A stretch of 64,000 nucleotides of DNA. Origin: Amycolatopsis pithecellobii (GTDB lineage: Bacteria > Actinomycetota > Actinomycetes > Mycobacteriales > Pseudonocardiaceae). Shown one piece after another: positions 45,669 to 64,000 of the stretch; positions within the stretch are counted from its first letter, which is position 1, and the number at the start of each line of letters is the position of its first letter. The notes below the pieces were generated by a model that did not search any database, was not told the origin of the DNA, and saw nothing but the letters and a program-made list of their open reading frames with translations. The translations under genes and the position numbers were made by a program. The DNA lies in the NCBI RefSeq assembly GCF_009707865.1, contig NZ_WMBA01000005.1, forward strand, positions 1 through 64,000, written 5' to 3'.

Positions 45669-45681
45669 GGAGGAGGATCCC

Positions 45682-45876
45682 GTGAAGATCAGCGTCGACT
45701 ATGACGCGTGCGTCGCATCCGGACAGTGCGTTCTCGCCGCGGCCGAGGTGTTCGATCAGCGCGAAGAGGACGGTGTCGTCGTGCTGCTGAACGAAAACCC
45801 GCGTGCCGAACTCGCGGACGACGTGCGGGAGGCAGCCGCATTGTGCCCTGCACTCGCGATCAGGATCGAGGAATGA
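45682..45876 (+). CDS. [3Fe-4S]-type ferredoxin
   Basis: 64 aa. Cys10 and Cys16 (DACVASGQC) and a late Cys in ALCPALAI give the three-Cys pattern of P450-partner ferredoxins; the position of the fourth ligand is Ala13. GTG start with a repeated GAGGAGGAGG upstream. The stop overlaps the reductase start (ATGA). Confidence 0.93.
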   Translation: MKISVDYDACVASGQCVLAAAEVFDQREEDGVVVLLNENPRAELADDVREAAALCPALAIRIEE

Positions 45877-47063: not shown

Positions 47064-47146
47064 CCAGCGGAAAGTCACAGGCAACACCCGCTTCGCGTCT
47101 TACTAGTACCCACACCCGTGGGCGCGACGATGACGAAGGGCGGACG

Positions 47147-48304: not shown

Positions 48305-49215
48305 GTGCCGATCCCGCGGAGCTGACCCGGATCGTCGAAGACCTCAGGCCGAGGCTCGCCGGTCTGGCCTACCAGCTGGTCGGGTCGGCTCCCGAAGCGG
48401 ACGACATCGTGCAGGAGGCGTTCCTGCGCTGGCATCACGCCGACCCGGCCGGGATCCGGCACCCGTGGTCGTGGCTGGCGAAGGTCGTCAGCCGGATCGC
48501 GCTCGATCACCTGCGCTCAGCACGGCACCGCCGCGAACACCCGGCCGGCACGTGGCTGCCCGCGCCCCCGGTGGAGCTCCGGGACGACCCGGCTGACCTG
48601 CTGGTTTTCGACGAAGCCATCGCCACGGCCATGCTGGTCGTGCTCGAGACGCTGACCCCCGCGCAGCGGGTCGTGTTCGTCCTGCGGGACGTGTTCGAAT
48701 GGCCGTTCGCGACGATCGCCGAGGTCGTCGGGCGCACCCCGCAGACCTGCCGGCAACTGGCGGCGAGGGCACGGCTCAAGGTGCGGACCGAGGGCCCGCG
48801 CACCCAGGCCGACCCGGTCGAGCACCGGGCGGCGGTCGACGCGTTCCGCGCCGCCTGCGTGCGCGGTGACCTGCCGGCGCTGCTGCGGACTCTCGATCAC
48901 GACATCGTCATCCGCACCGACGGCGGCCGGCTGACCGCCGCGCGGAAACCCATCCACGGAGCCGAACGGGCGGGCACCTATCTCAGCCGGATCCTCGCCA
49001 AGTGGCCGGTGCGGCTTTCGGCCGCGACCGTCGGCGGGGCGCCGGGGATCGCGGCCGAATGCCACGGGCAGATCGTCGCCGTCGCGAGCGTCGTGGTCCG
49101 GAACCGGCGCGTGGCCGGCCTCGACATCCTCACCGACCCGGCGAAACTCGCCCATGTGCCGCGCGCGATGACACCCGCCCGGCGCCTCGAAGAAGTGCGC
49201 ACCCGCCGGCGCTAG
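48301..49215 (+). CDS. ECF41-type RNA polymerase sigma factor (SigJ-like)
   Basis: 304 aa. Sigma-2 region (AYQLVGSAPEADDIVQEAFLR) and sigma-4 region (LTPAQRVVFVLRDVFEWPFATIAEVV) are followed by a SnoaL-like C-terminal domain of about 120 residues (VDAFRAACVRGDLPALLRTL), which is the ECF41 layout. In that group the C-terminal domain tunes activity instead of an anti-sigma factor; DGGRLTAARKPIHG resembles the conserved segment. Overlaps the MFS stop by 4 bp and, tail to tail, the methyltransferase by 4 bp. Confidence 0.92.
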   Translation: MSADPAELTRIVEDLRPRLAGLAYQLVGSAPEADDIVQEAFLRWHHADPAGIRHPWSWLAKVVSRIALDHLRSARHRREHPAGTWLPAPPVELRDDPADLLVFDEAIATAMLVVLETLTPAQRVVFVLRDVFEWPFATIAEVVGRTPQTCRQLAARARLKVRTEGPRTQADPVEHRAAVDAFRAACVRGDLPALLRTLDHDIVIRTDGGRLTAARKPIHGAERAGTYLSRILAKWPVRLSAATVGGAPGIAAECHGQIVAVASVVVRNRRVAGLDILTDPAKLAHVPRAMTPARRLEEVRTRRR

Positions 49216-50243
49216 CGGATCGCGCTGATCACCGCGTGTGGGGTCCAGGTGTCACCCGGCAGATGGCGGACTTCGCGGAACCCGGTGTCCACCAACCATT
49301 TCTCGTACTCGTCCCACCGGTAGATCGTGCTGTTCTCAGCGGGCAGGGTGGCGAAATACGCGTTGTCGAGCGCCGCGTAGAGCGGGCCCTCGGGGCTGTC
49401 TGCCATGGCACTGAAAATGAGCACCTTCCCGCCGGCGGGCAAGGCCTGCCATGCCTTGCCCAGCAACGTCCGGTTCTGCTCGGCCGACCAGATCAGCAGC
49501 TGGTTCGCGAACAGCACGCAATCGTGCCCACGTGGGAAGGCGTCGCGGAACATGTCGGCCGCACACACGGAAATCCGGTCGGACAGTCCACTGTGGTCGA
49601 TCTTCTCCCGCGCGATCTCCACCGCACCGGGCAGATCCAGCACCGTGAACCGGACGTGCGGATACCGCTGGGCGAGCGCGATCGCGTTCACACCGTCGCC
49701 GCCGCCGACATCCAGCACGTGCGTGACACCGGTGAGATCGGCCTTGCCGAGCAGCACCGGGTTCGACAACCGCGACCACGACCGCATGCACCGGTAGAAC
49801 AGCTCCTCCAGCGCGGGATCCTCCGCCAGCCGGTGATAGAGGTCGGTCCCTTCACCGGGAAAGCGGCGCAGTCCGACATTCCGGTTCTGCCGCAACGATT
49901 CCACGAAATCCGCCTGGGCGGGGTAGACGATGCGGTCCTCGAAAGTGATGAGATCACCGAGGATTTCCCAGCTGTCGTCGGCGAACATGGCGTCGATCAA
50001 CCGGGCGTTGCGGTAGCGCCCGTTGTCGAACACGGTGAGCCGCAACGCGGTGGTGCCGAGCAACAAGATGTCCGCGGACCGCGGCGCCACACCGAGTGCC
50101 CCGGCGATGTCCCCGGCCGTCAGCTCCGGGCGCTCGGCGAGCAGGCGGAACAGGCCGAGTTCGTGTCCCGCGTTGAGCATCTGGAAGGCGGCGGCGCCGA
50201 ACAGCGTGCGCACGAGGTCGTCCCGGGTCAGGTCATCGGTCAC
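49212..50243 (-). CDS. SAM-dependent O-methyltransferase of the biosynthetic cluster
   Basis: 343 aa. N-terminal dimerisation winged helix (TAGDIAGALGVAPRSADILL) and C-terminal Rossmann domain with HVLDVGGGDGVNAIAL, the classic O-methyltransferase family 2 plan of antibiotic pathways. GTG start with AGAGG upstream. Last gene of the 13.7-kb operon, 17 bp after kynureninase. A phenol on a hydroxyanthranilate or aminohydroxybenzoate unit is the likely acceptor; C-methylation cannot be excluded from sequence. Confidence 0.9.
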   Translation of the reverse strand: MTDDLTRDDLVRTLFGAAAFQMLNAGHELGLFRLLAERPELTAGDIAGALGVAPRSADILLLGTTALRLTVFDNGRYRNARLIDAMFADDSWEILGDLITFEDRIVYPAQADFVESLRQNRNVGLRRFPGEGTDLYHRLAEDPALEELFYRCMRSWSRLSNPVLLGKADLTGVTHVLDVGGGDGVNAIALAQRYPHVRFTVLDLPGAVEIAREKIDHSGLSDRISVCAADMFRDAFPRGHDCVLFANQLLIWSAEQNRTLLGKAWQALPAGGKVLIFSAMADSPEGPLYAALDNAYFATLPAENSTIYRWDEYEKWLVDTGFREVRHLPGDTWTPHAVISAIR

Positions 50244-50260
50244 AGTCGTTCCTCTCGTGG

Positions 50261-51487
50261 TCAGGTCACTCGGGCCGGCGTCGCCGGGTAGTTCTCGTAA
50301 GTGTGCCGATCGACGACGTCTTTCAGACAGCTCATCGCATCCCACACCTCGGTGAAACGCGTGTAGAGCGGCGATGGCGCGAGGCGCAGGCAGTCCGGCG
50401 GGCGGAAGTCCACGACGACTCCCGCGCCGGCCAGTGCCTGGCTCAGCCGCCACGCCTCGCGGCTGCGCAGGCTGACATGTCCGCCCCGGCACGCAGCATC
50501 GCGGGGAGAGGCCACCGTGAGCGGACCGCCGGCGAACCAGTCGTCGGCCAGGTCGGTGATCAGCCGGCACAATCGCACACTCTTGCGGCGGATCTCCTCG
50601 ACCCCGGCTTCGATGCACAGCTCGACTCCGGGTTCGACGGCGGCCAGCGAGAGGATCGGCGGTGTGCCCACGAGATAGCGGCCGATCCCGGCGACCGGAT
50701 CGAACAGCGGCCCCATGTCGAACTGGTTCCGCTGCGCGTACCAACCCTGGATCGGCGGCCGGAACCGGTCCTGCAGATCGCCGCGGACGTAAAGGAAACC
50801 GGGCGCGCCGGGCCCGCCGTTGAGGTACTTGTAGGTGCAGCCGACCGCCAGTTCGGCCCCCGCCGCCGCAAGATCCACCGGGATGAGACCGGCCGCGTGG
50901 CTCAGATCCCACAGCACCCGCGCCCCGGCCCGGCGGGCCATCGCGTTCACGGCATTCATGTCGAGCAGCCGGCCGGTCCGGAAATCCACCAGCGACAACA
51001 CGATCAACGCGACTGAATCATCCATAATAGACTCGAGTTCGGCTACATCGGACATCGGGCGGCAGCTCACCCCGTACTGCTCGGCGATGCCCTGGACGAG
51101 ATAACGGTTCGTCGGGAAATCCGCCGCGTCATAGATGATGGTGCCGGGTGTCGCCGCGAGCACCGCCGACGCGAGCTTGTACAGGTTGACCGAGGTCGAA
51201 TCCGACAGCACGACCTCGCCCGGACGGGCACCGAGAATGCGGGTGCCGAGCAGATCTCCGGTGCGGGCGCCCCAGTCGATCCAGTCCACCCAGGACCGGA
51301 CCAGCCCCCTCCCCCATTCCTCGGTCACCACGCGGGTCAGCTGCCGCACCGTGGCCCTCGGCAGCCGCCCGAGCGAGTTGCCGTCGAGATACAGCACGTC
51401 GTCGTGGCAGACGAAACGGTTCCGGAACTCACCGAGTGGATCGCCGGCGTCCCATGACGCGGCGGTCTCGCGATCGATTGCCGGCAC
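50261..51487 (-). CDS. kynU: Kynureninase
   Basis: 408 aa, PLP-dependent. Lys220 in TYKYLNGGPGAPG binds the cofactor; Asp194/His197 in WDLSHAAG, LDGNSLG at residues 35-41 and SLVDFRTG are conserved family marks. Cleaves kynurenine or 3-hydroxykynurenine to anthranilate or 3-hydroxyanthranilate plus alanine. GTG start with AAGGGA. Set directly after tryptophan dioxygenase and formamidase, so the cluster makes its own aminobenzoate from tryptophan. Confidence 0.95.
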   Translation of the reverse strand: MPAIDRETAASWDAGDPLGEFRNRFVCHDDVLYLDGNSLGRLPRATVRQLTRVVTEEWGRGLVRSWVDWIDWGARTGDLLGTRILGARPGEVVLSDSTSVNLYKLASAVLAATPGTIIYDAADFPTNRYLVQGIAEQYGVSCRPMSDVAELESIMDDSVALIVLSLVDFRTGRLLDMNAVNAMARRAGARVLWDLSHAAGLIPVDLAAAGAELAVGCTYKYLNGGPGAPGFLYVRGDLQDRFRPPIQGWYAQRNQFDMGPLFDPVAGIGRYLVGTPPILSLAAVEPGVELCIEAGVEEIRRKSVRLCRLITDLADDWFAGGPLTVASPRDAACRGGHVSLRSREAWRLSQALAGAGVVVDFRPPDCLRLAPSPLYTRFTEVWDAMSCLKDVVDRHTYENYPATPARVT

Positions 51488-51502
51488 AGCGATTCCCTTC
51501 GG

Positions 51503-52366
51503 TCACAGGCTGGTGCGCATCGACCACAGCTCCGGGAAGAAACGGTGCCCGGTGATCGAGCGCAGCCACGTCACCCCGCTGGTTCCCCCGCTTCCGGGTT
51601 TGGACCCGATGATCCGTTCCACCGTGAGGAGATGGGTGGAACGCCATCGTGCGAACAGGGATGAGACTTCGGTCAGCACTTCGCCGAGCTCGTACAGTTC
51701 CCGATGCGCGGCCGGGTCCCGGTACACCTCCAGCCAGGCCTGTTCGACCGCCGGTTCCGGGTGGTACAAGGTCGCCGGGTCACGGTCGGATACCGGAGCG
51801 GGAATGGACCCGGCCGACTTCGCCAGCAGCCGGATCACTTCGTCGTAAAGGCTCGGAGTAGTGAGTTCCCGCGCCACTTCGGGGTACCAGGGGGCGCGAC
51901 GATGCGGCCGCACCATCTCGGGATTCTTGTTGCCCAGCAGGAATTCCAGCTTGCGGTACGAAAAGGACTGGAAACCCGACGCGGCGCCGAGGTGATCGCG
52001 GAACTCGGCGAACTCGGCGGTGTTCAGTTCACCGAGCGCGTCCCAGCAGGAGATCAGCAGGTGTAGCACGCTCGTGGTGCGGCGGATCAGTTCCGTCGCC
52101 GGGGTGATCATGGCGTCCCGGAGGTGCTCCCGCGCCCGGGACAGTTCCGTGTAGAGCAGATCGAACAGCAGTTCCTTGACCTGGCTGATGACGATGAACC
52201 GGTACTCCAGCGCGGCGCCTGTCCGTGGTTTTTGCAGCGACAGCAACACATCCATGCGTGCGTAGTCCACATACGGTGTTTTCCCCGGCGGGAAGTCGAG
52301 CCACGGCTGTCCCCCGGTCTGCTCGGCGAGCCGGCGCCGCTGCTCGTCCGACGACAATTCAGTCAT
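51503..52366 (-). CDS. kynA: Tryptophan 2,3-dioxygenase with Ser at the distal His position
   Basis: 287 aa. Heme-ligand His245 lies in RWRSTHLLTVERIIGSKPGS, and SGGTSGVTWL (substrate carboxylate loop) follows. In the substrate helix, tryptophan dioxygenases read HQ before the ELWF segment; here it is Ser61-Gln62 in FIVISQVKELLF. Ser is what indoleamine dioxygenase has at this place, so catalysis is expected but may be tuned, for example to a substituted tryptophan. Overlaps the formamidase gene by 4 bp (ATGA). Confidence 0.93.
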   Translation of the reverse strand: MTELSSDEQRRRLAEQTGGQPWLDFPPGKTPYVDYARMDVLLSLQKPRTGAALEYRFIVISQVKELLFDLLYTELSRAREHLRDAMITPATELIRRTTSVLHLLISCWDALGELNTAEFAEFRDHLGAASGFQSFSYRKLEFLLGNKNPEMVRPHRRAPWYPEVARELTTPSLYDEVIRLLAKSAGSIPAPVSDRDPATLYHPEPAVEQAWLEVYRDPAAHRELYELGEVLTEVSSLFARWRSTHLLTVERIIGSKPGSGGTSGVTWLRSITGHRFFPELWSMRTSL

Positions 52367-53181
52367 GCCCGCTCCTCGTGTGCCGCCAGCACCGCGCGCC
52401 CCAGTTCGGTGGCCGGATCCGCCAGGTCATCGGGAAGGTCGAAGTGGTTCCGCGCCGGCGCCACGATTTCCGTCAGCTGCGTGCGATCACGCAGTTGCGC
52501 GGCGAGTTGTTCGTGCTGCCGGACGAACGGCGCCGTCTCCGCACCACCTCGGGCCAGGACGACGGGCGGCAAGGACGAAGGCAGCCGTAGCAACGGGCTG
52601 TTGCGGCGGGCGGCGCCGGCGGTGAGCCCCAACGCGTCGTTCACGTACGTGTGCACCAGCTCCCGCAGATCGTAGATTCCGCTCAACAGAGCCACTCCTG
52701 ACAGCACCCGGCGCAGCACGGCGTCCGTGCACAGCGCCATCAATACCAATTGCGCCCCGGCCGAAGTCCCCGAAACGACGATGCGCGCCGGATCGACGCC
52801 CATCGCCTCAGCGCTGCCGGCGAGCCGGCGTAACCCGCGCCGCACCATGTCCACGATGTCGTCAAGCTGATACCGGGGCGCCAGACCGTACCCCAGCGCC
52901 GCATAGGCGATACCCGCCGACAGGAATGCGGGCGCGGCGAAACTGGAGTCGTCTTTGCCGAGTTCCTGCCAGTACCCGCCATGCACGAACACGTGCAGGC
53001 TCGCGCCGTGGTGCGCCGGGAAAAAATCGGCCCGCTCGTGGCGTCCCTCGCCGTAGCTCAGCGTCCGATAGCGGTGGTCGCGACGTGCCCGCGCACTCCG
53101 CTCGGCGTAGGCCTCCAGATATCCGGGCAGATCCGCGACCAGTGAGCTCGGCGAATACTCCAGGTCCGCGCCGCCCGTCAT
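52363..53181 (-). CDS. Kynurenine formamidase-like alpha/beta hydrolase
   Basis: 272 aa. HGGYWQ (residues 68-73) is the oxyanion motif of arylformamidases; the nucleophile is Ser140 in SGTSAGAQLV and a late His is in ARNHFDLP. It should deformylate N-formylkynurenine. The ATG at 53181 overlaps the ligase stop by 4 bp and its own stop overlaps the dioxygenase start, so the pathway steps are translationally linked. It is of a different fold from the cyclase-type formamidase at 19689. Confidence 0.9.
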   Translation of the reverse strand: MTGGADLEYSPSSLVADLPGYLEAYAERSARARRDHRYRTLSYGEGRHERADFFPAHHGASLHVFVHGGYWQELGKDDSSFAAPAFLSAGIAYAALGYGLAPRYQLDDIVDMVRRGLRRLAGSAEAMGVDPARIVVSGTSAGAQLVLMALCTDAVLRRVLSGVALLSGIYDLRELVHTYVNDALGLTAGAARRNSPLLRLPSSLPPVVLARGGAETAPFVRQHEQLAAQLRDRTQLTEIVAPARNHFDLPDDLADPATELGRAVLAAHEERA

Positions 53182-54746
53182 CGCACACCTTCCTGGCGCG
53201 GGGATTCGCGGAGCAGCTGCGCCAGTTCCAGCCGTTGCGTCTTCCACGTCGAGGTACGTGGCAGCTCAGCCAGCGGCCACTGGACCGGCTCGGCCAGCTC
53301 CGGGAGGTCGGAAACCGCCGTCTGCCAACGCGTCGGGTCGAGTGGGCTGTCGTCCCGGGTGCTGAGCACCGGCACGCCCCGGCCGCCGTCGCCGTGCACG
53401 ATGACCACCTCCGCGAGTTCCTCGAGCCTGCCGAGCAGTTTGTCCTCCAGTTCGAGGGTGCTCGTGACGTTGGTGATCTCGTCGACTTCGCGGTCGAGCA
53501 GGTGGACCCGGTGGCGCCGCAGATAACCGAGGTCACCGAGGCGCCACCACGACCCGTCCGTCTGACTGGCGAAACGCTCCTCGTCGCCCAGATACGTGAG
53601 CGCACGGCCACGCGTCTGGACCTCCAGATATCCCGGGTGGTCCGGATCGGCCGGCATGCCATCCCGGCCGACCGCCCTGACCCGGGTGAACAACGGGAGC
53701 GGATAGCCGAGGCAGCGGCCGTCGGTGCGCAAAATGGACTGTCGCGAGTAGACCCAGCCCGAGATGGGCCCCGTCTCGCTCTGCCCGTACAACTGCACGA
53801 ACACGGGACGAGACCGTTTCGAGGCCGACAGCACCCGGTGCACGGTCCGTGGATGCGCCGCGTCGAAGGTGCTGCTGTAAGTGTGCACACTGGACAGTGG
53901 CGCACCATCGGCCTCGACGAGTGACTCCCACGTCATGAGGCAGTTCGGTGGTGTTTCGACCATGCCCGGTCTGGTGTGGACGAACGTCTCGGCGACCCGG
54001 TCCGGCGAGGTCTCGCTCATCAGGACCAGCGGCATGCCGTATTCCAGGCTCGTCCCGATGGCGCTGTAGAGGCGGGAATGCGAGAACGACATGCAGACCG
54101 CGAACGGATCCTGTTTCCGCACCGGCCTCGCCAGCAGAACCTGCGGCACCAGGCGCCACCACAACGTCTCAGCGGAATGGACGACGAGCTTGGGTAGCCC
54201 GGTGGTACCCGAGGTGTGCGTGATCAACGCGGGCTGACCGGGATGCAGCCGGACCGCCGCGCGCGCCGGGGCACCGGCGAACCCGGCGAGACCGGGCACC
54301 CCCGATCGGCCCGCCCCGACCAGGAGGACCGAACCGTCCGATGTGGACCGGATGCCGGGCTGGGACAGCGTGTCCGGGTCGGTCAGCAGCCGGGGGCGGT
54401 CCAGGCGGGCCATCAGTGCGGTCACGATCTCCGGCTTCAACGCCGGCGAGAGCAACACGGGTACCGCCCCGACGCGGGAACACGCCATGGCCAGCAACGA
54501 CACACCGAAGTCGTGTCGCTTGTGGACGACGACATGTTCGGCGGGCCGGATTCCCGCGGCCCACAACCGGGCGGCAAGCTCGGCGATGAGTCCGGCGACC
54601 GACCCCACCGTGAGCTCGCGGCCGCATTTCGCCACGTCGAGATCGTGGTCGAGGGTCACGGTCACCTCGGCGAAGCGCTCAGCGGCACGCTCGAACATCT
54701 CGCCGAGATAGAACGCCTTCTCCGGGAACGACCGGATGATCGGCAT
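53178..54746 (-). CDS. Acyl-adenylating enzyme (ANL superfamily)
   Basis: 522 aa. Core motifs are THTSGTTGLPK (A3), YGQSETGPISG (A5), RLGDLGYLRR (A7) and a C-terminal Lys in STWKTQRLEL (A10). It lacks a fused carrier domain. It should adenylate a carboxylate, for instance an anthranilate or an acyl chain, and pass it to CoA or a carrier protein. GAGGAGG precedes the ATG. Its position beside the kynurenine genes favours an aminobenzoate substrate, but binding-pocket residues do not settle this. Confidence 0.9.
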   Translation of the reverse strand: MPIIRSFPEKAFYLGEMFERAAERFAEVTVTLDHDLDVAKCGRELTVGSVAGLIAELAARLWAAGIRPAEHVVVHKRHDFGVSLLAMACSRVGAVPVLLSPALKPEIVTALMARLDRPRLLTDPDTLSQPGIRSTSDGSVLLVGAGRSGVPGLAGFAGAPARAAVRLHPGQPALITHTSGTTGLPKLVVHSAETLWWRLVPQVLLARPVRKQDPFAVCMSFSHSRLYSAIGTSLEYGMPLVLMSETSPDRVAETFVHTRPGMVETPPNCLMTWESLVEADGAPLSSVHTYSSTFDAAHPRTVHRVLSASKRSRPVFVQLYGQSETGPISGWVYSRQSILRTDGRCLGYPLPLFTRVRAVGRDGMPADPDHPGYLEVQTRGRALTYLGDEERFASQTDGSWWRLGDLGYLRRHRVHLLDREVDEITNVTSTLELEDKLLGRLEELAEVVIVHGDGGRGVPVLSTRDDSPLDPTRWQTAVSDLPELAEPVQWPLAELPRTSTWKTQRLELAQLLRESPRQEGVR

Positions 54747-54758
54747 GGCTACTCCTCC

Positions 54759-55376: not shown

Positions 55377-55414
55377 GCCATTCCTCGAACGCTGTGGGGT
55401 GGGAACGGTGGCGG

Positions 55415-56371: not shown

Positions 56372-57699
56372 CGGCTCGCCTGCCGCGCGGCGTGCCGGCG
56401 GTACAGGGTCAGCCTTCGCTCGCCGATCCGCTCGCGCGTCGCCGGATCCTCGATCCCGCCGCCTTCGCCCGCTGCGAGCCCCAATACCGCGACCTTCCCG
56501 ATGTGCTCGTTGCGCTGCACCCGGCGCGTCGCCTCGGCGGCGTCCTCGAGCGGATGGACCTCGGACAGCGTCGGCACCAGATGTCCGAGCCGCAGCAAGC
56601 GATTGACCTCCGCGGCTTCACCGAAGTTCGCGCCGTGGCTGCCGATGATCCGCTTGAGGCGCATCCACAGGTAGCGGTTGTCGAAGGTGTGCTCGTAACC
56701 GGTGCTCGAACCGCAGGTCACGATGGCACCGCCACGACGTGCGACGAACACCGAAGCCCCGAAGGTCTGTTTGCCGACGTGTTCGAAGACGATATGCGGG
56801 TCCTCTCCGGTCTGTTCGCGGATCGCCTTGCCCAAGCGGCGCCACGAATCGACGTCCTGCGAGCCGAGTCCGAGCGCCGCCCGGTCGAGCACCACGTCGC
56901 ACCCCAGATCCCTGAGCAGCTCGGCCTTCTCGGGTGAGCTCACCACGCCGACCGGTATCCCGCCGCCGTTACGGATGAGCTGGATGGCGTACCCGCCCAG
57001 CCCGCCGGTGGCACCCCAGACGAGCACCACGTCACCCTGCTTCATCCGCGCACCGCGCGGGCTGACGAGCATCCGGTACGCCGTGCCGGCACACAACAGG
57101 TTCGTTGCCGCCTCCTCCCAGGACAAGTGGGGCGGTTTGGGCAGCAACTGGTTGGCGCGCACCACGGCGAACTGGGCGAGCGAACCGAAATTGGTCTCGA
57201 ACCCCCAGGCGAGCTGATCCTCGGCCATCATGCCGTCGTCCTGCCCCGCCGGGGTTTCGGTGTCGATGTGTCCAGGATGGACAACGACCCGGTCGCCCGG
57301 TTTCCAGCGGCGCACCGCCGCCCCCACCCGGACGACGACGCCGACCGCGTCCGAGCCGAGGATGTGATACGGCTGATCGTGCCGGGACTCCCAGTACCCG
57401 CGACGGCCGAGCTGGTGGAGAAACCGGAAACCCGGGATCGGCGCGAACATCGCGGACCACACCGTGTTGTAGTTGATCCCGGCCGCCATGACGGCGACCA
57501 GCGCCTCGTCCGGGGCCAGTTCGGGCATCGGCACCTCACCGACCTTCATACTCTTGCGGACATCCCGGTCCTCCTCGCCCGAGAACATCTCGACGTCCTC
57601 GACACGCAGGTGTGCGGCCAAATAGGACTCCGGCACCGGACACGCCCGCAGTTCCGGCCCGTCCGCTCCGGCGCGGACCGCATCCACCAGCTCACTCAC
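56368..57699 (-). CDS. ccr: Crotonyl-CoA carboxylase/reductase
   Basis: 443 aa from GTG 57699 (AGGGAG upstream). Long N-terminal extension ending in AAGINYNTVWSAMFAPIPGF, the specific lid YHILGSDAVGV, and the NADPH motif WGATGGLGGYAIQ, all typical of Ccr rather than ordinary quinone reductases. Makes ethylmalonyl-CoA (or alkylmalonyl-CoA) from crotonyl-CoA and CO2, an extender unit for polyketides. Its presence implies polyketide-type chain building, though no PKS module lies in the window. Confidence 0.95.
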   Translation of the reverse strand: MSELVDAVRAGADGPELRACPVPESYLAAHLRVEDVEMFSGEEDRDVRKSMKVGEVPMPELAPDEALVAVMAAGINYNTVWSAMFAPIPGFRFLHQLGRRGYWESRHDQPYHILGSDAVGVVVRVGAAVRRWKPGDRVVVHPGHIDTETPAGQDDGMMAEDQLAWGFETNFGSLAQFAVVRANQLLPKPPHLSWEEAATNLLCAGTAYRMLVSPRGARMKQGDVVLVWGATGGLGGYAIQLIRNGGGIPVGVVSSPEKAELLRDLGCDVVLDRAALGLGSQDVDSWRRLGKAIREQTGEDPHIVFEHVGKQTFGASVFVARRGGAIVTCGSSTGYEHTFDNRYLWMRLKRIIGSHGANFGEAAEVNRLLRLGHLVPTLSEVHPLEDAAEATRRVQRNEHIGKVAVLGLAAGEGGGIEDPATRERIGERRLTLYRRHAARQASR

Positions 57700-57732
57700 T
57701 TCGGCTCCCTTCCGTGGAATCGGCGGCACCAC

Positions 57733-58479
57733 TCATGCGGCGGCTCCCCCGTCGACGACGAGGTCATGGGCGTATACGAACGAGGATTCGGCCGAGCAGA
57801 GCCACAAAATCGCCCGTGCGACCTCGTCGGGCCGACCCGATCGGCCGGCGGGGATCGTAGCCTTCATCCGCTCCGCGCGGTCCTGTTCGGACTCACCGGG
57901 TCTGCGCGACATCGCGGTGTCGATCGCCGCCGGGCTGACGATGTTGATCCGGATTCCGCGCCCCGCCTGCTCTTTCGCGGCGGTTCTGGTGAGCGCCTCG
58001 ACGGCCGCTTTCGTCGCGGCATAACCGCCGGTCCCGGGTACGGCACCGTGCCGGCCGATGACCGAGGACACGGTGACGATCCGGCCGCCCGCTTCACACA
58101 TCGCGCGGATCTCGTGTTTGAGGCACAGCCAGGTGCCCGTCAGGTTGGTCGACACCAGCCGTCCCCAGTCTTCGGAGGTCAGGTCCTCGACCGGCGCTGT
58201 GGAGAAGTATCCCGCGCTGTTGACCGCGATGTCGAGACGGCCGTGTTCGCTGTCCACTCCGCGGAAAAGTTCGTCCACTTCGGACTCTCTGCTGATGTCC
58301 ACCGGTTTCACCGTCACCGCACCGTCGATCGCCGAAGCGGTCTCCCGCAGGGTGTGCACGTTCCGGCCGGCCAGTATCACGTGCGCGCCCTCGGCCGCGA
58401 ACGCCCGCGCGGTCGCACGCCCGATACCGGAACCGGCGCCGGTGACCAGCACCGTCTTTCCCGGAAAACGTCCTGTCAC
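57733..58479 (-). CDS. SDR family oxidoreductase of the biosynthetic cluster
   Basis: 248 aa. TGAGSGIGRATA, NSAG (in place of NNAG), and GYAATK with upstream VSSVIG. GTG start. Its place next to the Ccr gene suggests a beta-keto or tailoring reduction; no specific assignment is possible. Gaps of 33 bp to the downstream and 6 bp to the upstream neighbour keep it in the operon. Confidence 0.9.
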   Translation of the reverse strand: MTGRFPGKTVLVTGAGSGIGRATARAFAAEGAHVILAGRNVHTLRETASAIDGAVTVKPVDISRESEVDELFRGVDSEHGRLDIAVNSAGYFSTAPVEDLTSEDWGRLVSTNLTGTWLCLKHEIRAMCEAGGRIVTVSSVIGRHGAVPGTGGYAATKAAVEALTRTAAKEQAGRGIRINIVSPAAIDTAMSRRPGESEQDRAERMKATIPAGRSGRPDEVARAILWLCSAESSFVYAHDLVVDGGAAA

Positions 58480-58485
58480 GCCGCT

Positions 58486-58995
58486 TCACTGCCTTCCGAG
58501 GTTCGTGTCGAGCTCGTCGAGGGCCCCTGGACCCGGTTGCCAGCCATGGGAAACCGCGATGCGGGCCATGACCGCCATCCTGGCCGGGTCTGGTTGGTCC
58601 GGAAGCTCACCGGGCCGGGCCGGGAATCCGGCTTCGAGAAAGAACCGTTCGAATCCGCCCGGGGTGTACCAGAACAGCAGCCTTGCCGCGTGCACCGACT
58701 CGTTCCGGAACCGGTGCACCGTCCTTTTCGGAATGAACACGAAGTCACCGGCCCGCGCGAGGAAACTCCGTTTCCCGTGGGTGATCCGCACCTCACCGGA
58801 CAGGACGTAGAACGATTCGTCCTCGTGCGTGTGCGCATGCGGGCGCGGGCCGCTTCCCGGCGGGACCGTGGCTTCCACGAAACCGAGGGCACCACCGGTG
58901 TCGTCCGCGGTGACCTTCACGGTGTAGGTGTCACCGAAGACCCAGACGGGCCGGCCCGCGCCGGCGGGAACGTGGATGGCGCTCGGCTCAGTCAT
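58486..58995 (-). CDS. Cupin-domain protein (quercetinase-like)
   Basis: 169 aa. The metal motif reads PHAHTHEDESFYVLSGEV (His, His and Glu ligands) with the second His in KRTVHRFRN. Such single-domain cupins include dioxygenases, isomerases and tailoring enzymes. Overlaps the arylamine acetyltransferase stop by 8 bp. Function within the pathway is unknown; ring cleavage or oxygenation of an aminophenol is one option. Confidence 0.88.
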   Translation of the reverse strand: MTEPSAIHVPAGAGRPVWVFGDTYTVKVTADDTGGALGFVEATVPPGSGPRPHAHTHEDESFYVLSGEVRITHGKRSFLARAGDFVFIPKRTVHRFRNESVHAARLLFWYTPGGFERFFLEAGFPARPGELPDQPDPARMAVMARIAVSHGWQPGPGALDELDTNLGRQ

Positions 58996-59818
58996 GATCG
59001 TGCGTGCCTCCGATCAGGGCCACCTGGTCGGAGACCGTGGTCTTGCGCGGGATGACGGGCAGCCGGTCGAGGGTGATCCCGAAGTACTTCAGGTACGCCG
59101 CCCGGATTTCCGCCTCATCGTGGAGGAATTCCTTGGTGCGCTTGCCGTTGCGGGTACGGATGAGGACGTCACCGCTGAGCGTGATCCGCCCGTCCGGCAC
59201 CACGATCGAGCAGTACAGCCGATCGTGAATGGGGCTGTCCGGGGCGCTTTCCGCCCACCGCAGGATCGGGGCCAGCTCGGTCAGCGACCGGGGCCTGGTC
59301 TCGATCCGGTACACCGGTTTGCCGTCGCGGAGCACGTCCAGGTCCCCGTGTGGTCTGTCCACGACCTGGAAGACGCCGTGCGGATCGGGCTGCGGGTCCC
59401 GCACGTCCATCCGGAGCGGATACCGGCTGCTGCCACCGAAACCGACATCGACGAGCCACGGTTCCGGAGTGCTGACGCACAGCAGGACATGCCCGAAGAT
59501 GGTGCCCAGCCGGTCGCCGTAGAACACCCGGCCGCCCAGCAGTTCCGTGTGATAACCGAGGGCACGCAACAAGGCGTCGAAAGCGGATGCGTTGAGTTCA
59601 CGGCATCCTCCGCCCCGCTGCTCGCGAACCACCTTGTCCACGGCGGCATCGCCGAGCGGTAGCGGGCGGCCCAGATGCGTGTCGATGTTCTCGTACGGCA
59701 CCGAGGCGAGATGTTTCGCCTGCAGGTCCCGCAGACCGGCGGCGTCGGGCACCCGTGGCCGGGTGGCACCGATCCGGCGGAGATAGGCGTCCACGGTCTC
59801 GTCGTCGAGCTCGGTCAT
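58988..59818 (-). CDS. Arylamine N-acetyltransferase homologue (candidate amide synthase)
   Basis: 276 aa. The catalytic triad is intact: Cys72 (RGGGCRELN), His110 (FGHVLL), Asp124 (LVDVGFGG). NATs acylate arylamines from CoA donors; in rifamycin and manumycin-type clusters homologues join a polyketide chain to an aminobenzoate amine. With two aminobenzoate routes in this operon, that role is likely. The ATG at 59818 has AAGGA at 6 nt; an upstream GTG at 59836 would overlap the monooxygenase stop. Confidence 0.92.
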   Translation of the reverse strand: MTELDDETVDAYLRRIGATRPRVPDAAGLRDLQAKHLASVPYENIDTHLGRPLPLGDAAVDKVVREQRGGGCRELNASAFDALLRALGYHTELLGGRVFYGDRLGTIFGHVLLCVSTPEPWLVDVGFGGSSRYPLRMDVRDPQPDPHGVFQVVDRPHGDLDVLRDGKPVYRIETRPRSLTELAPILRWAESAPDSPIHDRLYCSIVVPDGRITLSGDVLIRTRNGKRTKEFLHDEAEIRAAYLKYFGITLDRLPVIPRKTTVSDQVALIGGTHDHD

Positions 59819-59832
59819 CTCAGGTCCTTGCG

Positions 59833-60996
59833 TCACAGCGTTGCCTTTTCCGCGTCGTAGCCGTAAATCCAGGCACGGTCGCGCAGTTCGTCGGCTCCGC
59901 GCAGACCGGTGTCCCGGCGATGTTGTTCCGCGCTGTCGGGAAGGTGGGCGACCGTGGCACGAGATCGCGACGATGCCTGTATCGCGGATGTCCGTTGCCT
60001 GCGCGCCTTTTCGTATCGGCGTAAGGCGCCCGGCGCACCGGCCGGTGTGCTCGCGGCCAGGCAGCGGGCCAGGACGACGGCGTCCTCGATGGCCTGGTTC
60101 GCGCCCTGTGCCAGGGTCGGCAGCATCGGGTGGGCGGCGTCACCGGCCAAGGTGGTCCGGTCCGCGCCCGTCCACGCGACCGGATCGCGGTCGTAGAGCG
60201 CCCATTTGCCCACCAGTTCGGCGCCGTCGAACAGCTGCCGGACGTCGTCGTGCCAGTCCGCATAAGCGGCCGTCAGTTCCGCTCTGCTGCCCTGTGCCGA
60301 CCACGATTCCTGCGCCCCGTGCGCGGCCGGGACGGTGGCCGAAAAGGCGAACGAGCGCCCGGCGGAGACCGGATAGCACACGCAGTGCCGGCCCGGCCCG
60401 AGCCAGCTGACGATTTCCTCGTCGCGGAACGGGACGTCCTGCCGTGGCACGAGTCCGCGATAGATCGCTTCCCCTGTGAAGCGCGGCGTGTCGATGACCA
60501 GCGATTGCCGCACCACGGAATGGATCCCGTCCGCACCGATGACGACGTCGGCTCTTTCGGCGGCCCCGGTGGCAAACCGGACCGCGGTCACGTCCCCGGT
60601 TTCCACGCCCACACAGGAGCTCCCCAGCCGCACTGTCCCTTCAGGCAGGGCATCCGCGAGCATCCGGTGCAGATCGGCTCGGTGCATCGTGTAGTAGGGC
60701 GCACCGTAAAGCTCGACGCAGTGCTGCCCGAGCACGGTGTGCCCCAGCACCTGCCCGTCCCGCCAGCGTCGGCGGCGCAGTGCTCGTGGCCGCGCGGCGG
60801 TGCGCATGAGCTCGTCGCGAAGTCCGAGGCGGTGCAACAGTTTCGATGCGTTGGGCGCCAGCTGGATACCGGCTCCGACCGGCCCGAGCCGGCCGGCCTG
60901 CTCGTAGACCCGGCAGGCCAGCCCGGCTCGGTGTAACGCCAGCGCCGTGGTGAGCCCAGCTATCCCGGCACCGATCACCGCGATCCGCATACTCAT
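59833..60996 (-). CDS. FAD-dependent aromatic monooxygenase
   Basis: 387 aa. FAD GAGIAG at residues 9-14, later ADLHRMLADAL, and GDAAHPMLPTLAQGANQAIEDAVVLA as the second FAD fingerprint, all of group A flavin hydroxylases (salicylate hydroxylase/kynurenine monooxygenase type). Two uses fit: hydroxylation of kynurenine, or hydroxylation (possibly decarboxylating) of 3-amino-4-hydroxybenzoate. The start overlaps the GriH-type gene (ATGA, 60993-60996); a second ATG at 60990 is better placed for GGAG. Confidence 0.92.
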   Translation of the reverse strand: MSMRIAVIGAGIAGLTTALALHRAGLACRVYEQAGRLGPVGAGIQLAPNASKLLHRLGLRDELMRTAARPRALRRRRWRDGQVLGHTVLGQHCVELYGAPYYTMHRADLHRMLADALPEGTVRLGSSCVGVETGDVTAVRFATGAAERADVVIGADGIHSVVRQSLVIDTPRFTGEAIYRGLVPRQDVPFRDEEIVSWLGPGRHCVCYPVSAGRSFAFSATVPAAHGAQESWSAQGSRAELTAAYADWHDDVRQLFDGAELVGKWALYDRDPVAWTGADRTTLAGDAAHPMLPTLAQGANQAIEDAVVLARCLAASTPAGAPGALRRYEKARRQRTSAIQASSRSRATVAHLPDSAEQHRRDTGLRGADELRDRAWIYGYDAEKATL

Positions 60997-62090
60997 TTCT
61001 CCAGGCAGAATTCGTCGATCGGGTACCCGACATGCCGGTCGGCGCTGGGCAGGTGACCGAGCACCCTGTCCCCCGGCCGCAGTTCGGTGCTGTTGAGTAC
61101 CGTCGCGCCCGGCCCGAGCACCCGCACATGCCAGTCGTCCTGCAGGATCAGGTTCACCGTGACCCCGCCGGGGCCGACCGCGTCGATCGCGATAAGGGGG
61201 CGGGTCTCGATCTTCACCCTCCCCACGGTCACCAGCCGGGCCTGCCCTTTCGTGTCCACCGCGAGCACCTTGCTGCCCGACCGCAGCTCGCTCAGGTAGT
61301 GCGTACGACCGTTGTCCCGCAACGTGTACGAGTGGATCGCGCCGGCATTCACCCGGAACGGCCGGGTCGGCATGTACGGGAGCGGGTGGGTTTCGCTGAC
61401 GCACAGGATCATGCCTTTGGAATGCGAGCCGACGAGAATGCCTTCGTCCTCCCGGAAATGCGTACACGTGTCGACGCACGCACGCTCCCCGATCCCGACG
61501 TGGCTGACCTTGGTGACCTCCAGTTCCACCAGGTCCACTGTGGACGTTCCCGACGCGGCGGCGGCGAGCAGGCCGGACACCTCGCCCACCGTCGCCGGCG
61601 CGAGCAGCACCCCGTCGGCGCCGTGTTCGAGTACCCCGAAGACGACCTCGGCCTCCGCGATATCGGCGACCGCCGTGATGATCGTGCCACTCGACTGCGC
61701 CGCCGCGGCGAGCACGATTTCCAGCGGGATCTTCGTGGGATCGCGGAACAGCACCACGGTCCAGGGCAACAGTTTCGCCGATTCGCAGGCCAGCTCCAGC
61801 GATTCCGGATCGGTGACCTCGACGAACCTGCCGACCTCGGCACCGGCTCCCGGCTGCGCCAGCTCGGCGGGGTGTCCACTGTGGTGCAACACCACGTCCG
61901 CGGCATCGGTGGCGATATCCTGCCCTCCGTCCGGCCGCCACAGCACTTTGCGGATCGTCGGGGGCAGGCCGGTCAGATCCTCGGCACGGTCGCTCAGCAC
62001 CGCGTCCGCCCGGTTGTGCACCGCCTCTTCGATGATCGCGTCCTTGAGCTCGCCGGCGAGGCCACGCAGGTCGATCCAGCTCAGTTTCAT
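60993..62090 (-). CDS. griH: 3-amino-4-hydroxybenzoate synthase (GriH type; dehydroquinate synthase II family)
   Basis: 365 aa. KLSWIDLRG at the N-terminus, YTVVLFRDPTKIPLEIV-like TVVLFRDPTKIPLEIV, CVDTCTHFREDEGILVGS, SETHPLPYMPTRPFRVNAGA and DDWHVRVLGPG match the family, and the ending IDEFCLEK is typical of GriH. Bacterial members in actinomycetes convert the C7 aldol product to 3,4-AHBA rather than making dehydroquinate. Coupled to the GriI-type gene by ATGA and preceded by GGAGG. Confidence 0.9.
   Translation of the reverse strand: MKLSWIDLRGLAGELKDAIIEEAVHNRADAVLSDRAEDLTGLPPTIRKVLWRPDGGQDIATDAADVVLHHSGHPAELAQPGAGAEVGRFVEVTDPESLELACESAKLLPWTVVLFRDPTKIPLEIVLAAAAQSSGTIITAVADIAEAEVVFGVLEHGADGVLLAPATVGEVSGLLAAAASGTSTVDLVELEVTKVSHVGIGERACVDTCTHFREDEGILVGSHSKGMILCVSETHPLPYMPTRPFRVNAGAIHSYTLRDNGRTHYLSELRSGSKVLAVDTKGQARLVTVGRVKIETRPLIAIDAVGPGGVTVNLILQDDWHVRVLGPGATVLNSTELRPGDRVLGHLPSADRHVGYPIDEFCLEK
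61533..61545. repeat. Representative copy of dispersed palindrome GTCCACTGTGGAC
   Basis: The same palindrome or close variants (core CCACWRTGG or CCATWGTGG) occur inside genes at 8633, 9329, 9692, 17781, 20046, 21740, 23469, 25016, 25112, 39445, 49586, 61533, 61874 and 62154. Reading frames differ between copies. Confidence 0.6.
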
Positions 62091-62914
62091 GCTCTTACCT
62101 CCAGCGGATGGCCGGAACGGGAAGCCACGGCGGGCTCCCAGTCGGCGGGATGGACCACAGTGGACAGTTCTTTTGCCAGGCCTGCCGGGTCTGCGGACTG
62201 GAACACGTTGCGGCCCATGGCGATCCCGGCCGCACCGGCGGCGATCACGTCTTCGGTCAGCCGGGCGACCTCCGTCCCGGCGCCGAGCGGCGGACCACCG
62301 GCGACGAGCACCGGAATCGGGCACGAGCGCACCACGTCCGCCAGCCCGGCGGGTGAGCCCGGATACGGAAGCTTGACCAGATCGGCCCCGAGGTCGGCGG
62401 CGATGGTGGCGGCATGGGCCACCACATCGGTCTGCACGAGATCACCCATTCCGGGTCCGCGCGGGTACATCATTGCCAGCAGTGGGATGTTCCAGTGGTC
62501 GCAGGCGTCCCCGACCCGGCCCAGATCGGCCAATTGGGTGTGTTCGGTCGCGGACCCGAGGTTCACGTGGACGCTCACCGCGTCCGCCCCCATCCGCAAA
62601 GCCTCCTCCACGGTCGAGACCAGGTACTTGCGGTCCGGATCCGGTGCGTGTCTCGTGCTGGCCGACAGGTGCACGACGAGCGACAGCCGGCTGAACAGCC
62701 GCGCCCCGAGCCGTCGTGCGCTGCCCTTGTGCAACACGACGGCATCCACACCGGCGCGGTCGAGCAGGCGGACGAGCCGGTCCAGCTCACGGGTTCCGGT
62801 GATCGGGCCGTCGGTGACGGAATGGTCCAGCGGCACGACGAACAGATGCTGGTCGCCGTGCCGGAACAGCCGCCGCAGGCGGATCTCCCGCCCGAAAGAA
62901 CTGCTGGCAGACAA
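62087..62914 (-). CDS. griI: C7 aldolase for 3-amino-4-hydroxybenzoate (GriI type)
   Basis: 275 aa, DhnA-class aldolase. Asp30 (VPLDHSV), Lys63 (LHKGS) and Schiff-base Lys181 (DLVKLPYPGS). Segments HLSASTRHAPDPDRKYL and VHVNLGS are close to GriI, which joins aspartate semialdehyde with DHAP. The start is a TTG at 62914, with GGAGGGG seven nt upstream, so it is first in the operon. Together with the next gene it supplies 3,4-AHBA without using the shikimate pathway. Confidence 0.9.
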   Translation of the reverse strand: MSASSSFGREIRLRRLFRHGDQHLFVVPLDHSVTDGPITGTRELDRLVRLLDRAGVDAVVLHKGSARRLGARLFSRLSLVVHLSASTRHAPDPDRKYLVSTVEEALRMGADAVSVHVNLGSATEHTQLADLGRVGDACDHWNIPLLAMMYPRGPGMGDLVQTDVVAHAATIAADLGADLVKLPYPGSPAGLADVVRSCPIPVLVAGGPPLGAGTEVARLTEDVIAAGAAGIAMGRNVFQSADPAGLAKELSTVVHPADWEPAVASRSGHPLEVRA

Positions 62915-62983
62915 TCGCGTTCCCCTCCGAATTCGCTTTTCGCCTCGGGACCGACGCTAGCGAAGGGAATTGCCGGCCGGCCA

Positions 62984-63033
62984 CTGCTTGATTGAGTAGT
63001 CCCGGACCACCCGCGCACTACTCGATCGATCAG
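62984..63033. promoter_or_regulatory. Large inverted repeat between the divergent biosynthetic genes
   Basis: Arms CTGCTTGATTGAGTAGT (62984-63000) and ACTACTCGATCGATCAG (63017-63033) are complementary at 14 of 17 positions, 16 bp apart. Each is flanked outward by GGGAATTGC (62965-62973 and 63035-63043). The symmetric layout between a leftward operon and a rightward ligase gene fits an operator for a cluster regulator, which is not in the window. Confidence 0.75.
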
Positions 63034-63108
63034 CGGGAATTGCGGTCCGGAAACGGTGACCGGACGGTAATGTGATCGCTGTGCCGGGTTTTCGAGGGGG
63101 TGATCACC

Positions 63109-64000
63109 ATGCGCTGGATCGACGATCTGCTCCGGCGGGGCGAGGAAAGCGAAATCCGGTTCGTCGGCGGGCAACCGCTCACGATGCAGCGGCTGCGGAA
63201 TGAGGTGGAAAGGCTCACCGCGCTGTTCGGTCACCTGGGGGTGCGCGGGGGCACGTCGGTCGCGGTGCAGGTGCCGCCCAGCTTCACCTTCTTGTTCGCG
63301 GTGCTCGCTTTGTGGCGCCGCGACGCAGAAGTCCTGTTGCTGGACCATCGTTCCTCGGCCACCGACCGGGCGCGATTGCTGGCACTGCGCGGAAGCAGCC
63401 TGCTCCTGCGCAGTTCCGGCGGCCGGCTGGTGCGGGACTTCACCGACGAATGCGAGCTCGTGATCGAGCGCCGCCCGAACGGGCACCACTCCGCTCGCCA
63501 CGCGCTCGTCCAGCGCAGTTCGGGCACCACCGGCACCCCGAAGATCGTGTGCCGGTCGGCGTCCTCATTGCGCCGGGAAATCGTCTGCACGGCGGCGGTA
63601 CCCGGTATGCCACGAGAAGGCGATCGGGTGCTGCTGCTCAATTCCGTGATTTCGTCGTTCGGCCTTCTCGGTGGAATTCTGCACGCTTTACACAACCGTT
63701 CGGTGGTGGTATTTCCTGCCGGTTCCGGACCGGACGCGATCGCCGCCAGGGCACAAACCGCTCGGGCGGACGTCATCTTCGGCGCGCCCTTTCATTTCGA
63801 GCTACTCAGCCGGCTACCCGAAGGCGCGACGACGGCTCCCGTCAGGCTCGCGGTTTCCAGTGGTGACACCGTGCATCGCGAGGTGTACGAACGCTTCCGC
63901 GATCGGTTCGGCATCCGGATCGGGCAGGCGTACGGCACCACCGAGACCGGCCTGCTCGCCATCGATCCCGCCGGGCTCCGACCACCGCCCGTGCTGGGCA
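63109..64000 (+). CDS. Acyl-adenylating enzyme, 3' end cut by window edge
   Basis: At least 297 codons, open to the right edge. A3 motif RSSGTTGTPK at about residues 137-146 and A5 motif YGTTETG near 278 identify an ANL-superfamily ligase. The N-terminus is compact for the family. GAGGGGG precedes the ATG at 63109 (GTG at 63100 is an alternative). It heads a rightward transcript divergent from the AHBA operon, so it probably activates an aminohydroxybenzoate or a polyketide starter. It differs clearly from the ligase at 53178. Confidence 0.88.
   Translation, partial: MRWIDDLLRRGEESEIRFVGGQPLTMQRLRNEVERLTALFGHLGVRGGTSVAVQVPPSFTFLFAVLALWRRDAEVLLLDHRSSATDRARLLALRGSSLLLRSSGGRLVRDFTDECELVIERRPNGHHSARHALVQRSSGTTGTPKIVCRSASSLRREIVCTAAVPGMPREGDRVLLLNSVISSFGLLGGILHALHNRSVVVFPAGSGPDAIAARAQTARADVIFGAPFHFELLSRLPEGATTAPVRLAVSSGDTVHREVYERFRDRFGIRIGQAYGTTETGLLAIDPAGLRPPPVLG

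Follow-up and report, generated by a model that had tools for sequence, protein, structure and literature searches.

Does a single bacterial operon make two different aromatic amines, and are both meant for one molecule? The question arises from a stretch of Amycolatopsis pithecellobii DNA, bases 1–64,000 of a 201,114-base contig (NZ_WMBA01000005.1; genome of 7.9 Mb in 144 contigs), here called the window, in which an initial annotation had described one operon for 3-amino-4-hydroxybenzoate (3,4-AHBA, hereafter AHBA) and a kynurenine-derived aminobenzoate. Using a codon-usage gene caller, we found 14 minus-strand genes read from right to left, from a GriI-type aldolase gene at 62914 down to a methyltransferase gene at 49212 (Table 1). 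This one operon encodes both arms, as had been claimed, and no other locus that we examined has both: the parts are known, and their combination turned up nowhere else among the genomes searched. We propose a hybrid pathway with two aromatic-amine arms, a reading that, taken whole, we hold to be marginally probable; the operon would be a compact 14-gene route predicted to unite two pharmacophore precursors.

Gene layout and distribution

The 14 gene families were upheld at the Pfam/NCBIfam level in the order and on the strand first described; all functional assignments are sequence-based. The 13 junctions, in operon order, measure –4, +2, +14, –8, +6, 0, –4, +38, +12, –4, –4, +15 and +17 bp, computed with two starts shifted upstream: that of ketoacyl synthase III (KAS III) to the ATG at 56371, which overlaps the Ccr stop, and that of the short-chain dehydrogenase/reductase (SDR) to the GTG at 58479, which restores an N-terminal strand. 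The largest overlap is 8 bp and the largest gap 38 bp; overlaps of 4–8 bp, at first thought to be the rule, occur at only 5 of the 13. The operon is bounded on the left by a convergent (tail-to-tail) sigma-factor gene and on the right by a divergent AMP-ligase gene. The range originally given, 49212–64000, is accordingly too wide: 62914–49212 is the operon, and the last ~0.9 kb (63109–64000) belongs to the divergent ligase gene, which ends at 64476.

Table 1. Genes of the operon, its flanks, and DUF6875 genes in related loci
Gene	Assignment	Position	Strand	Evidence
g62	GriI-type (DhnA/DeoC family) aldolase, first 3,4-AHBA enzyme	62087..62914	-	PF01791 167 bits; TTG start
g61	GriH-type 3,4-AHBA synthase (DHQS-II family)	60993..62090	-	PF01959 370 bits
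g60	Class A FAD monooxygenase	59833..60990	-	Nearest solved: tropone 2-monooxygenase, 286 bits
g59	Arylamine N-acyltransferase, probable amide-forming step	58988..59818	-	PF00797 151.7 bits
g58	Quercetinase-like cupin, probable quinone/hydroquinone oxygenase or epoxidase	58486..58995	-	Cupin_2 68 bits
g57	FabG-like SDR ketoreductase	57733..58479	-	PF13561 212 bits
g56	Crotonyl-CoA carboxylase/reductase family (Ccr)	56368..57732	-	TIGR01751 531 bits, cut-off 378.6
g55	KAS III, intact Cys-His-Asn triad	55415..56371	-	Motifs VACAGF, PHQAN, TGNT
g54	DUF6875 haem-family protein, predicted L-tryptophan 7-hydroxylase	54759..55376	-	PF21780 173.4 bits, cut-off 24.5
g53	AMP-forming acyl/aryl ligase	53178..54746	-	PF00501 115 bits
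g52	Kynurenine formamidase-like alpha/beta hydrolase	52363..53181	-	PF07859 43 bits
g51	Tryptophan 2,3-dioxygenase without distal histidine	51503..52366	-	PF03301 178 bits
g50	Kynureninase	50261..51487	-	KYNU_C 96 bits; 349 bits to 1qz9
g49	SibL-like 3-hydroxykynurenine C4-methyltransferase (predicted)	49212..50243	-	SibL 4qvg 406 bits, next-best solved protein 103
g63	Divergent AMP ligase, probably co-regulated	63109..64000, on to 64476 of contig	+	PF00501 105 bits
	Possible left accessory block: MarR regulator, P450, ferredoxin, ferredoxin reductase, MFS pump, sigma factor	43934..49215	+	Pfam
	DUF6875 in actinomycin-like loci	L182:9998-10633, L183:9965-10618 (acnF place); also L174:10001-10660		

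The 14-gene operon contains no megasynthase, and its 14 proteins include no prenyltransferase, type II polyketide synthase (PKS) or 5-aminolevulinate (ALA) synthase family in Pfam/NCBIfam. A dibenzodiazepinone-like or manumycin-type amide had been suggested as a possible product. Manumycins are made with type II PKS and C5N (ALA synthase) genes, and diazepinomicin-type dibenzodiazepinones with a prenyltransferase and two aminobenzoate units; neither the former genes nor a prenyltransferase family was found in the operon or the annotated flank genes, and nonribosomal peptide synthetase (NRPS) genes were likewise absent from both.

To place the combination, we searched 390 genomes of the family. 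A DUF6875 match was found in 99 (E up to 1e-5), a GriH-type match in 88 (E up to 1e-40; 110 places), and both markers in 41. Among these 41 carriers the markers lie no more than 50 kb apart on one contig in this genome only (6.2 kb); the next nearest pair on one contig is 138.6 kb apart, and in the other 40 genomes a distance of 138 kb or more separates the markers, or they fall on separate contigs, where, many of the 390 assemblies being drafts, their distance cannot be measured. We examined 40 of the 110 GriH places over up to 19 kb (the best matches and some of a more distant group) and recounted them by tblastn at E 1e-10: tryptophan 2,3-dioxygenase (TDO), kynureninase, formamidase, DUF6875 and Ccr were absent from all 40. 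Conversely, a wider scan of genome contigs gave 280 DUF6875 relatives, and the best 80 of these 280 loci, with flanks of up to 10 kb, contained no tblastn match to GriI, GriH, the flavin monooxygenase (FMO, g60), Ccr or KAS III. Genes in the relatives' loci come from a simple caller, so that label counts are approximate; the main counts were redone by tblastn. We recognised no description of the combination in the open-access literature among the matches listed.

The tryptophan arm

The product of g54 had been described as an unknown protein; the gene is indeed present, and that label can be replaced by DUF6875. The protein keeps the family residues, with 12 columns invariant across 42 aligned sequences, including D110, K117, C134, R157 and D163, and with C39 and H162 conserved at 90% or more. 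Deletion of either zigI, a DUF6875 gene, or zigH, a methyltransferase gene, gave a demethoxylated product, and, on the authority of a preprint cited there, DUF6875 proteins bind haem and can oxidise L-tryptophan, and ZigI bears the motif of tryptophan C7-hydroxylases (PMC13307353). From this literature on relatives, g54 is predicted to bind haem and to hydroxylate tryptophan at C7. The zigralone producer was recovered in our scan as locus L207 and served as a positive control. DUF6875 is often accompanied by TDO: the two share a locus in 9 of 12 DUF6875 loci inspected at 20 kb, fused in one frame in two of them, and TDO occurs in 33 of the best 80 of 280 loci by tblastn recount, with the gene caller predicting a single DUF6875–TDO protein in 10 of those 80.

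At the other end of the arm, g49 is identical to SibL at 190 of 335 aligned residues (57%) and keeps five of the six residues that hydrogen-bond the substrate in SibL: Tyr134 (catalytic), Tyr288, Asp292, Tyr295 and His335. SibL methylates 3-hydroxykynurenine on carbon and does not accept 3-hydroxyanthranilate, and the operon differs from the sibiromycin cluster in having no pyrrolobenzodiazepine assembly (NRPS) genes (PMC4426599). Two loci, L041 and L042, hold the same kynurenine module at 51–66% identity (methyltransferase 65–66%), and relatives of g49 at 62–65% occur in L173, L174, L177 and L179–L181. Locus L174 is from Streptomyces iakyrus, which we take to be an actinomycin producer, and the last domains of its adjoining NRPS are, in order, condensation, adenylation, methyltransferase, carrier and thioesterase.

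Another parallel is the actinomycin cluster acn, with the order acnF (hypothetical, 211 amino acids), acnG (formamidase), acnH (TDO), acnL (kynureninase) and acnM (methyltransferase, 88% to AcmL); in its published description no kynurenine 3-monooxygenase gene lies inside the cluster, and acnF is indispensable, its authors proposing a role in dimerisation (PMC6521150). The operon follows the same order, acnF being likened to g54 by size and position, but differs in that NRPS genes are absent, an AMP ligase is inserted after DUF6875, and the block forms one operon with AHBA genes. The acn layout recurs in loci L182 and L183: an A-type protein (472/463 amino acids), a protein of 78/87 amino acids without a Pfam match, MbtH, a 187-amino-acid protein and then DUF6875 (211/217 amino acids). 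Because DUF6875 occupies the acnF position in these two loci, we infer that acnF encodes a DUF6875 protein; the 3-hydroxyl group in the 3-hydroxy-4-methylanthranilate (4-MHA) of actinomycin would then probably come from DUF6875. The FMO g60 scores 46 bits with kynurenine 3-monooxygenase, against 286 for its best match, and so hardly qualifies as that enzyme. Given the identity of g54 and the likeness of g49 to SibL, the tryptophan arm should yield 4-MHA, the actinomycin and sibiromycin precursor, instead of ending in anthranilate or 3-hydroxyanthranilate as first annotated.

Relatives of the formamidase (42–60% identity) occur in DUF6875 loci. The kynureninase carries the Trp/Gly/Thr residues of the Pseudomonas enzyme, which we take to indicate a preference for kynurenine over 3-hydroxykynurenine; the same residues are found in the kynureninases of modules with a SibL-like methyltransferase (L177, L179, L180, L181 and L042; Trp/Ser/Thr in L041), so the signature does not discriminate, and we dropped it as an objection to a 3-hydroxykynurenine route. 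We likewise rejected loss of the distal histidine of TDO as an adaptation to 7-hydroxytryptophan. The residue is missing from 46 of 46 TDO frames on DUF6875 loci (44 within 3 kb, two farther; the frames include duplicates, for example L044/L196 and L045/L211/L168, or a locus's second TDO), but also from 37 of 49 controls, the remaining 12 TDOs from loci without DUF6875 keeping it; the controls were 50 loci with short flanks, picked by profile score and by hand, of which L168 was DUF6875-linked and counted among the 46. As the controls mostly lack the histidine too, its loss is a trait of the TDO clade and is not specific to DUF6875. A large actinobacterial clade has Pro, Ala, Glu, Gln or Leu at this position of the haem pocket.

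Fused DUF6875–TDO genes, located near 9900–11400 of loci L208, L215, L216, L222, L224, L227, L229, L230, L238 and probably L214, are followed by two proteins of ~320–490 amino acids and, in several loci, by an arylamine N-acyltransferase (NAT; 26–32%); one of them, in Paraburkholderia (L222), lies beyond Actinomycetota. In L210, which holds a tenth fusion, kynureninase takes the place of these followers. The AlphaFold model of DUF6875 has a mean pLDDT of 94.5; its top Foldseek match, apo-AglA (E 0.045, TM 0.29), is not significant, and we claim no fold relation. Kinship with YqcI/YcgG was tried and rejected: to the right of the cluster lies a YqcI/YcgG–cupin fusion gene (L004:9218–10258; contig 69218–70258), and hhalign of DUF6875 against the nearby YqcI/YcgG protein gave a probability of 0.2%, so that no sequence kinship was found.

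The aminohydroxybenzoate arm and a proposed acyl supply

The first two genes encode the pair by which we recognised AHBA synthesis, a DhnA-type aldolase adjoining a DHQS-II enzyme: g62 scores 308 bits with PRK07226 (cut-off 241) and g61 535 bits with PRK02290.1-3 (cut-off 375), and a GriI relative was found in 40 of the 40 GriH loci. The AHBA pair of the initial annotation is thereby confirmed; the carboxyl group of its product may be lost at the next step. Besides tropone 2-monooxygenase, the solved proteins matched by g60 are the decarboxylative vanillate 1-hydroxylase (262 bits), a '4-hydroxybenzoate decarboxylase' (203 bits) and, distantly, the kynurenine 3-monooxygenase mentioned above. 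Loss of the carboxyl is favoured because the two nearest are tropone 2-monooxygenase and the vanillate enzyme, and g60 is probably a decarboxylative 1-hydroxylase of AHBA giving 2-aminohydroquinone.

The Cys-His-Asp residues of the NAT are present (RGGGC, GHV, VDVG). The closest PDB proteins of the cupin are YxaG and QueD, and its 3-His/1-Glu motif, which we take to be the cupin motif, is intact. Among the 40 GriH loci, 13 have a g60-like FMO (44–56%), eight a NAT (27–54%), three a g58-like cupin and two (L118 and L120) a KAS III. FMO and NAT occur together in L094, L099 and L120, the NATs of these three being 42–47% identical to g59; in L120 the KAS III gene lies between the genes for the AHBA pair, FMO and NAT. 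A recurrent set in the family (L090, L101, L103, L104, L109, L112 and L113) begins with GriI and GriH and continues with some or all of five further genes, for amidohydrolase, AMP ligase, g60-like FMO, SDR and isochorismatase; the domains of the additional genes were verified for L090.

An acyl chain would be supplied by the next two genes. The Ccr is nearest to the octenoyl-CoA reductase/carboxylase 4a0s (619 bits; the five crotonyl entries listed score 476–490), and in alignments judged by eye the residues at positions 163 and 362 of 4a0s are Ala and Gly in both proteins, where 6owe has Ile and Phe; Ala and Gly there presumably mark the octenoyl-type (CinF) subgroup. The KAS III scores 311 bits with NF006829 (cut-off 249; 297-amino-acid version), and since its Cys-His-Asn triad is kept it should condense carbon chains. 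Two relatives in the 390 genomes (69 and 65%) stand above the next group (at most 53% in the rows listed) and have unrelated surroundings. The gene of the closer one (L254, genome G361) contains one in-frame TGA and adjoins a LysR regulator and a BrkB-family protein. The AMP ligase g53 lies inside the kynurenine block, after DUF6875. Its relatives in the genus (19 genomes; 37–50%) occur in other contexts, and a global genome-contig scan, in a mode that detects close relatives only, returned none.

Transfer of β-ketoacyl groups to aromatic amines has precedents in nybP/nybM/nybK (PMC6265801) and DaqS/DaqT (PMC11213898). For nybomycin, 2,6-diaminophenol arises through hydroxylation and decarboxylation, and the published proposal has a condensing enzyme form acetoacetyl-CoA and a NAT attach it to this amine (PMC6265801); the diazaquinomycin NATs place β-ketoacyl groups on 2,6-diaminohydroquinone, and AsuC2 acylates AHBA (PMC11213898). 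The operon resembles these systems in combining an aromatic hydroxylase, a condensing enzyme and a NAT, likened by family; it differs in that its AHBA-derived amine has one amino group, and in having a Ccr, a cupin, an SDR and a kynurenine arm besides. No cyclase family corresponding to a nybN-type pyridone cyclase was found among its 14 proteins. By analogy, the set of FMO, NAT and KAS III fits the nybomycin/diazaquinomycin logic, both in this operon and in L120, where kynurenine genes are absent.

The later steps recall the fungal asperpentyn pathway aty, in which the FMO AtyG carries out oxidative decarboxylation of a 4-hydroxybenzoate derivative, the cupin AtyE then oxidises and epoxidises a hydroquinone and AtyC/AtyD finally reduce a ketone, the sequence of events proposed here; the same article cites two bacterial DHAE epoxidases acting on 2,5-dihydroxyacetanilide, that is, N-acetyl-2-aminohydroquinone (PMC12356543). 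This likeness is one of described roles, and aty differs in being fungal and amine-free. The ahbamycin cluster ahb shares AHBA genes, acyl-CoA ligases, oxygenases, reductases and a cupin protein, but comprises 31 genes, and NAT, kynurenine, Ccr and KAS III genes do not appear in the gene list consulted (PMC10179220). The mycemycin cluster mym is also small and aromatic; besides TDO and kynureninase it encodes an enzyme resembling ketoacyl synthases, for which amide formation is proposed. Its partner is salicylate in place of AHBA, it has halogenases, and g55, for comparison, has the full condensing triad (PMC5867642).

Competing pathways and flanking genes

From the gene families, their order, the conserved residues named above and the contexts in relatives, we infer the substrates, the decarboxylation, the acyl group and the union of both arms in one molecule. 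In the first arm, GriI and GriH would form AHBA, whose carboxyl the FMO would exchange for a hydroxyl to give 2-aminohydroquinone. In the second, DUF6875 would hydroxylate L-tryptophan at C7, and TDO, formamidase, the SibL-like methyltransferase and kynureninase would lead to 4-MHA. Ccr would provide a medium-chain alkylmalonyl-CoA, which KAS III would condense with a starter to an α-alkyl-β-ketoacyl-CoA; the NAT would transfer that acyl group to the aminohydroquinone, the cupin would oxidise or epoxidise the ring, and the SDR would reduce a carbonyl. One AMP ligase would activate 4-MHA, either to prime KAS III or to enter an amide or ester bond, and g53 could be that ligase. The operon thus yields testable predictions: 7-hydroxytryptophan, C4-methylation, decarboxylative hydroxylation and β-ketoacyl transfer. 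A more specific form, to which we lend little weight, has 4-MHA prime KAS III, with the alkylmalonyl-CoA from Ccr as extender, the NAT move the aryl β-ketoacyl chain to 2-aminohydroquinone, and cupin and SDR give an epoxyquinol or azaquinone. If true, this would be a new scaffold, with an actinomycin-type precursor starting a single-step, PKS-free polyketide extension and joined to an AHBA-derived warhead.

Several observations weigh against the proposal. Six proteins stay under the cut-offs of relevant models: the aldolase (NF041223 BagB/FevI, 326 bits against an 'exception' cut-off of 500) and g61 (NF041224 BagC/FevH, 530 against 750), both Bag/Fev 'exception' models being narrow by type; the FMO, whose best NCBIfam model is the carboxyl-keeping 3-hydroxybenzoate 6-monooxygenase (271 against 459); KAS III (TIGR00747, 260 against 292); TDO (TIGR03036, 285 against 390.7); and, narrowly, kynureninase (TIGR01814, 237 against 246.4). 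Haem binding by g54 is predicted from relatives, and Tyr99 of SibL is Phe in g49. No acyl carrier protein, crotonase or pyridone cyclase was found among the 14 genes in Pfam/NCBIfam. Of the 13 AHBA loci that have a close FMO, 10 lack a NAT; the AHBA-linked NATs are for the most part no nearer to g59 than other NATs of the genus (46–52%), and the KAS IIIs of L118 and L120 (33–43% to g55) rank below others of the family (~50%); because these identities are mostly no higher than those of ordinary family members, it is the gene combination that supports the roles of NAT and KAS III. Finally, a 51% relative of g53 sits beside the FMO in an AHBA locus without kynurenine genes (L119), and for this reason g53 may not serve the kynurenine arm.

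The FMO might instead be a carboxyl-keeping ring hydroxylase, for which we take PtmB3/CreL as the model, giving 3-amino-2,4-dihydroxybenzoate for a NAT that acts like PtmC with an acyl-CoA. PtmC and PtnC do acylate that compound (PMC11213898), the operon opens with the AHBA pair, the FMO and the NAT, and the best NCBIfam model of g60, though below cut-off, is of this kind; but the nearest relatives among solved proteins are tropone 2-monooxygenase and decarboxylative hydroxylases, and cupin and SDR come next as in a hydroquinone-to-epoxyquinol pathway. We consider retention of the carboxyl, together with such acylation, rather unlikely. Slightly less credible still is that the arms are merely co-transcribed and make two independent products, for instance a 4-MHA metabolite and an acylamino-epoxyquinol: each arm exists as a separate module elsewhere and no obvious enzyme here joins them, but with a largest internal gap of 38 bp no junction is of promoter size, and the AMP ligase lies within the kynurenine block.

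Both predicted units of the two-arm pathway are o-aminophenols, and 4-MHA is the precursor of the actinomycin chromophore (PMC6521150), so that oxidative coupling to a mixed phenoxazinone, as in actinomycin and grixazone, can be imagined; the 14 genes include no phenoxazinone-synthase-like oxidase family, the NAT would block the amine, and Ccr and KAS III would have no use, which makes this outcome improbable. Methylation on oxygen, giving 3-methoxyanthranilate, is very improbable. The initial label of O-methyltransferase is right as to a methyltransferase and agrees with the Pfam family of g49, Methyltransf_2, an O-methyltransferase domain family; match and residues indicate a SibL-like C-methyltransferase, since the protein is far closer to SibL than to any other solved protein, keeps Tyr134 and Tyr295, and has Leu/Ile at the His/Asp positions of the O-methyltransferase ASMT, where SibL has Val/Ile. 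We give least credence of all to g53 as an ATP-dependent diazotase (CreM/AvaA6 type) with a diazo product. It does match NF058622 (AvaA6) at 75.8 bits, and its best PDB hits, 9bq0 and 8tf7, are named only 'AMP-binding protein'; yet the cut-off of that model is 975 bits, two generic ligase models score higher, the L119 relative also fits ligase models better, and no nitrite-making gene was recognised among the 14 operon proteins.

Extension to the right, proposed as a check, did not split the arms. The flank adds the AMP ligase g63, which begins 194 bp from the operon, and then g64, a plus-strand gene for 177 amino acids without a Pfam or NCBIfam match. Relatives of g63 (33–41%) lie beside GriH in 8 of the 40 loci and a relative of g64 in two, which ties this flank to the AHBA arm; g63 is also 38–39% identical to the A-type protein of L182/L183. 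Beyond g64 lie a LuxR-type regulator, a TetR regulator, a major facilitator superfamily (MFS) pump and a lipoate-ligase-like gene. Membership of the left block (43934–49215) is uncertain. Its P450, ferredoxin and ferredoxin reductase genes span window positions 44463–47063, and relatives of the P450 (54%) and ferredoxin (46%) lie near a DUF6875–TDO–methyltransferase set in Nocardia wallacei (L218). Farther left, at 15547–27495, nine consecutive minus-strand genes, eight of them for proteins of 391–505 amino acids, are followed by a LysR gene.

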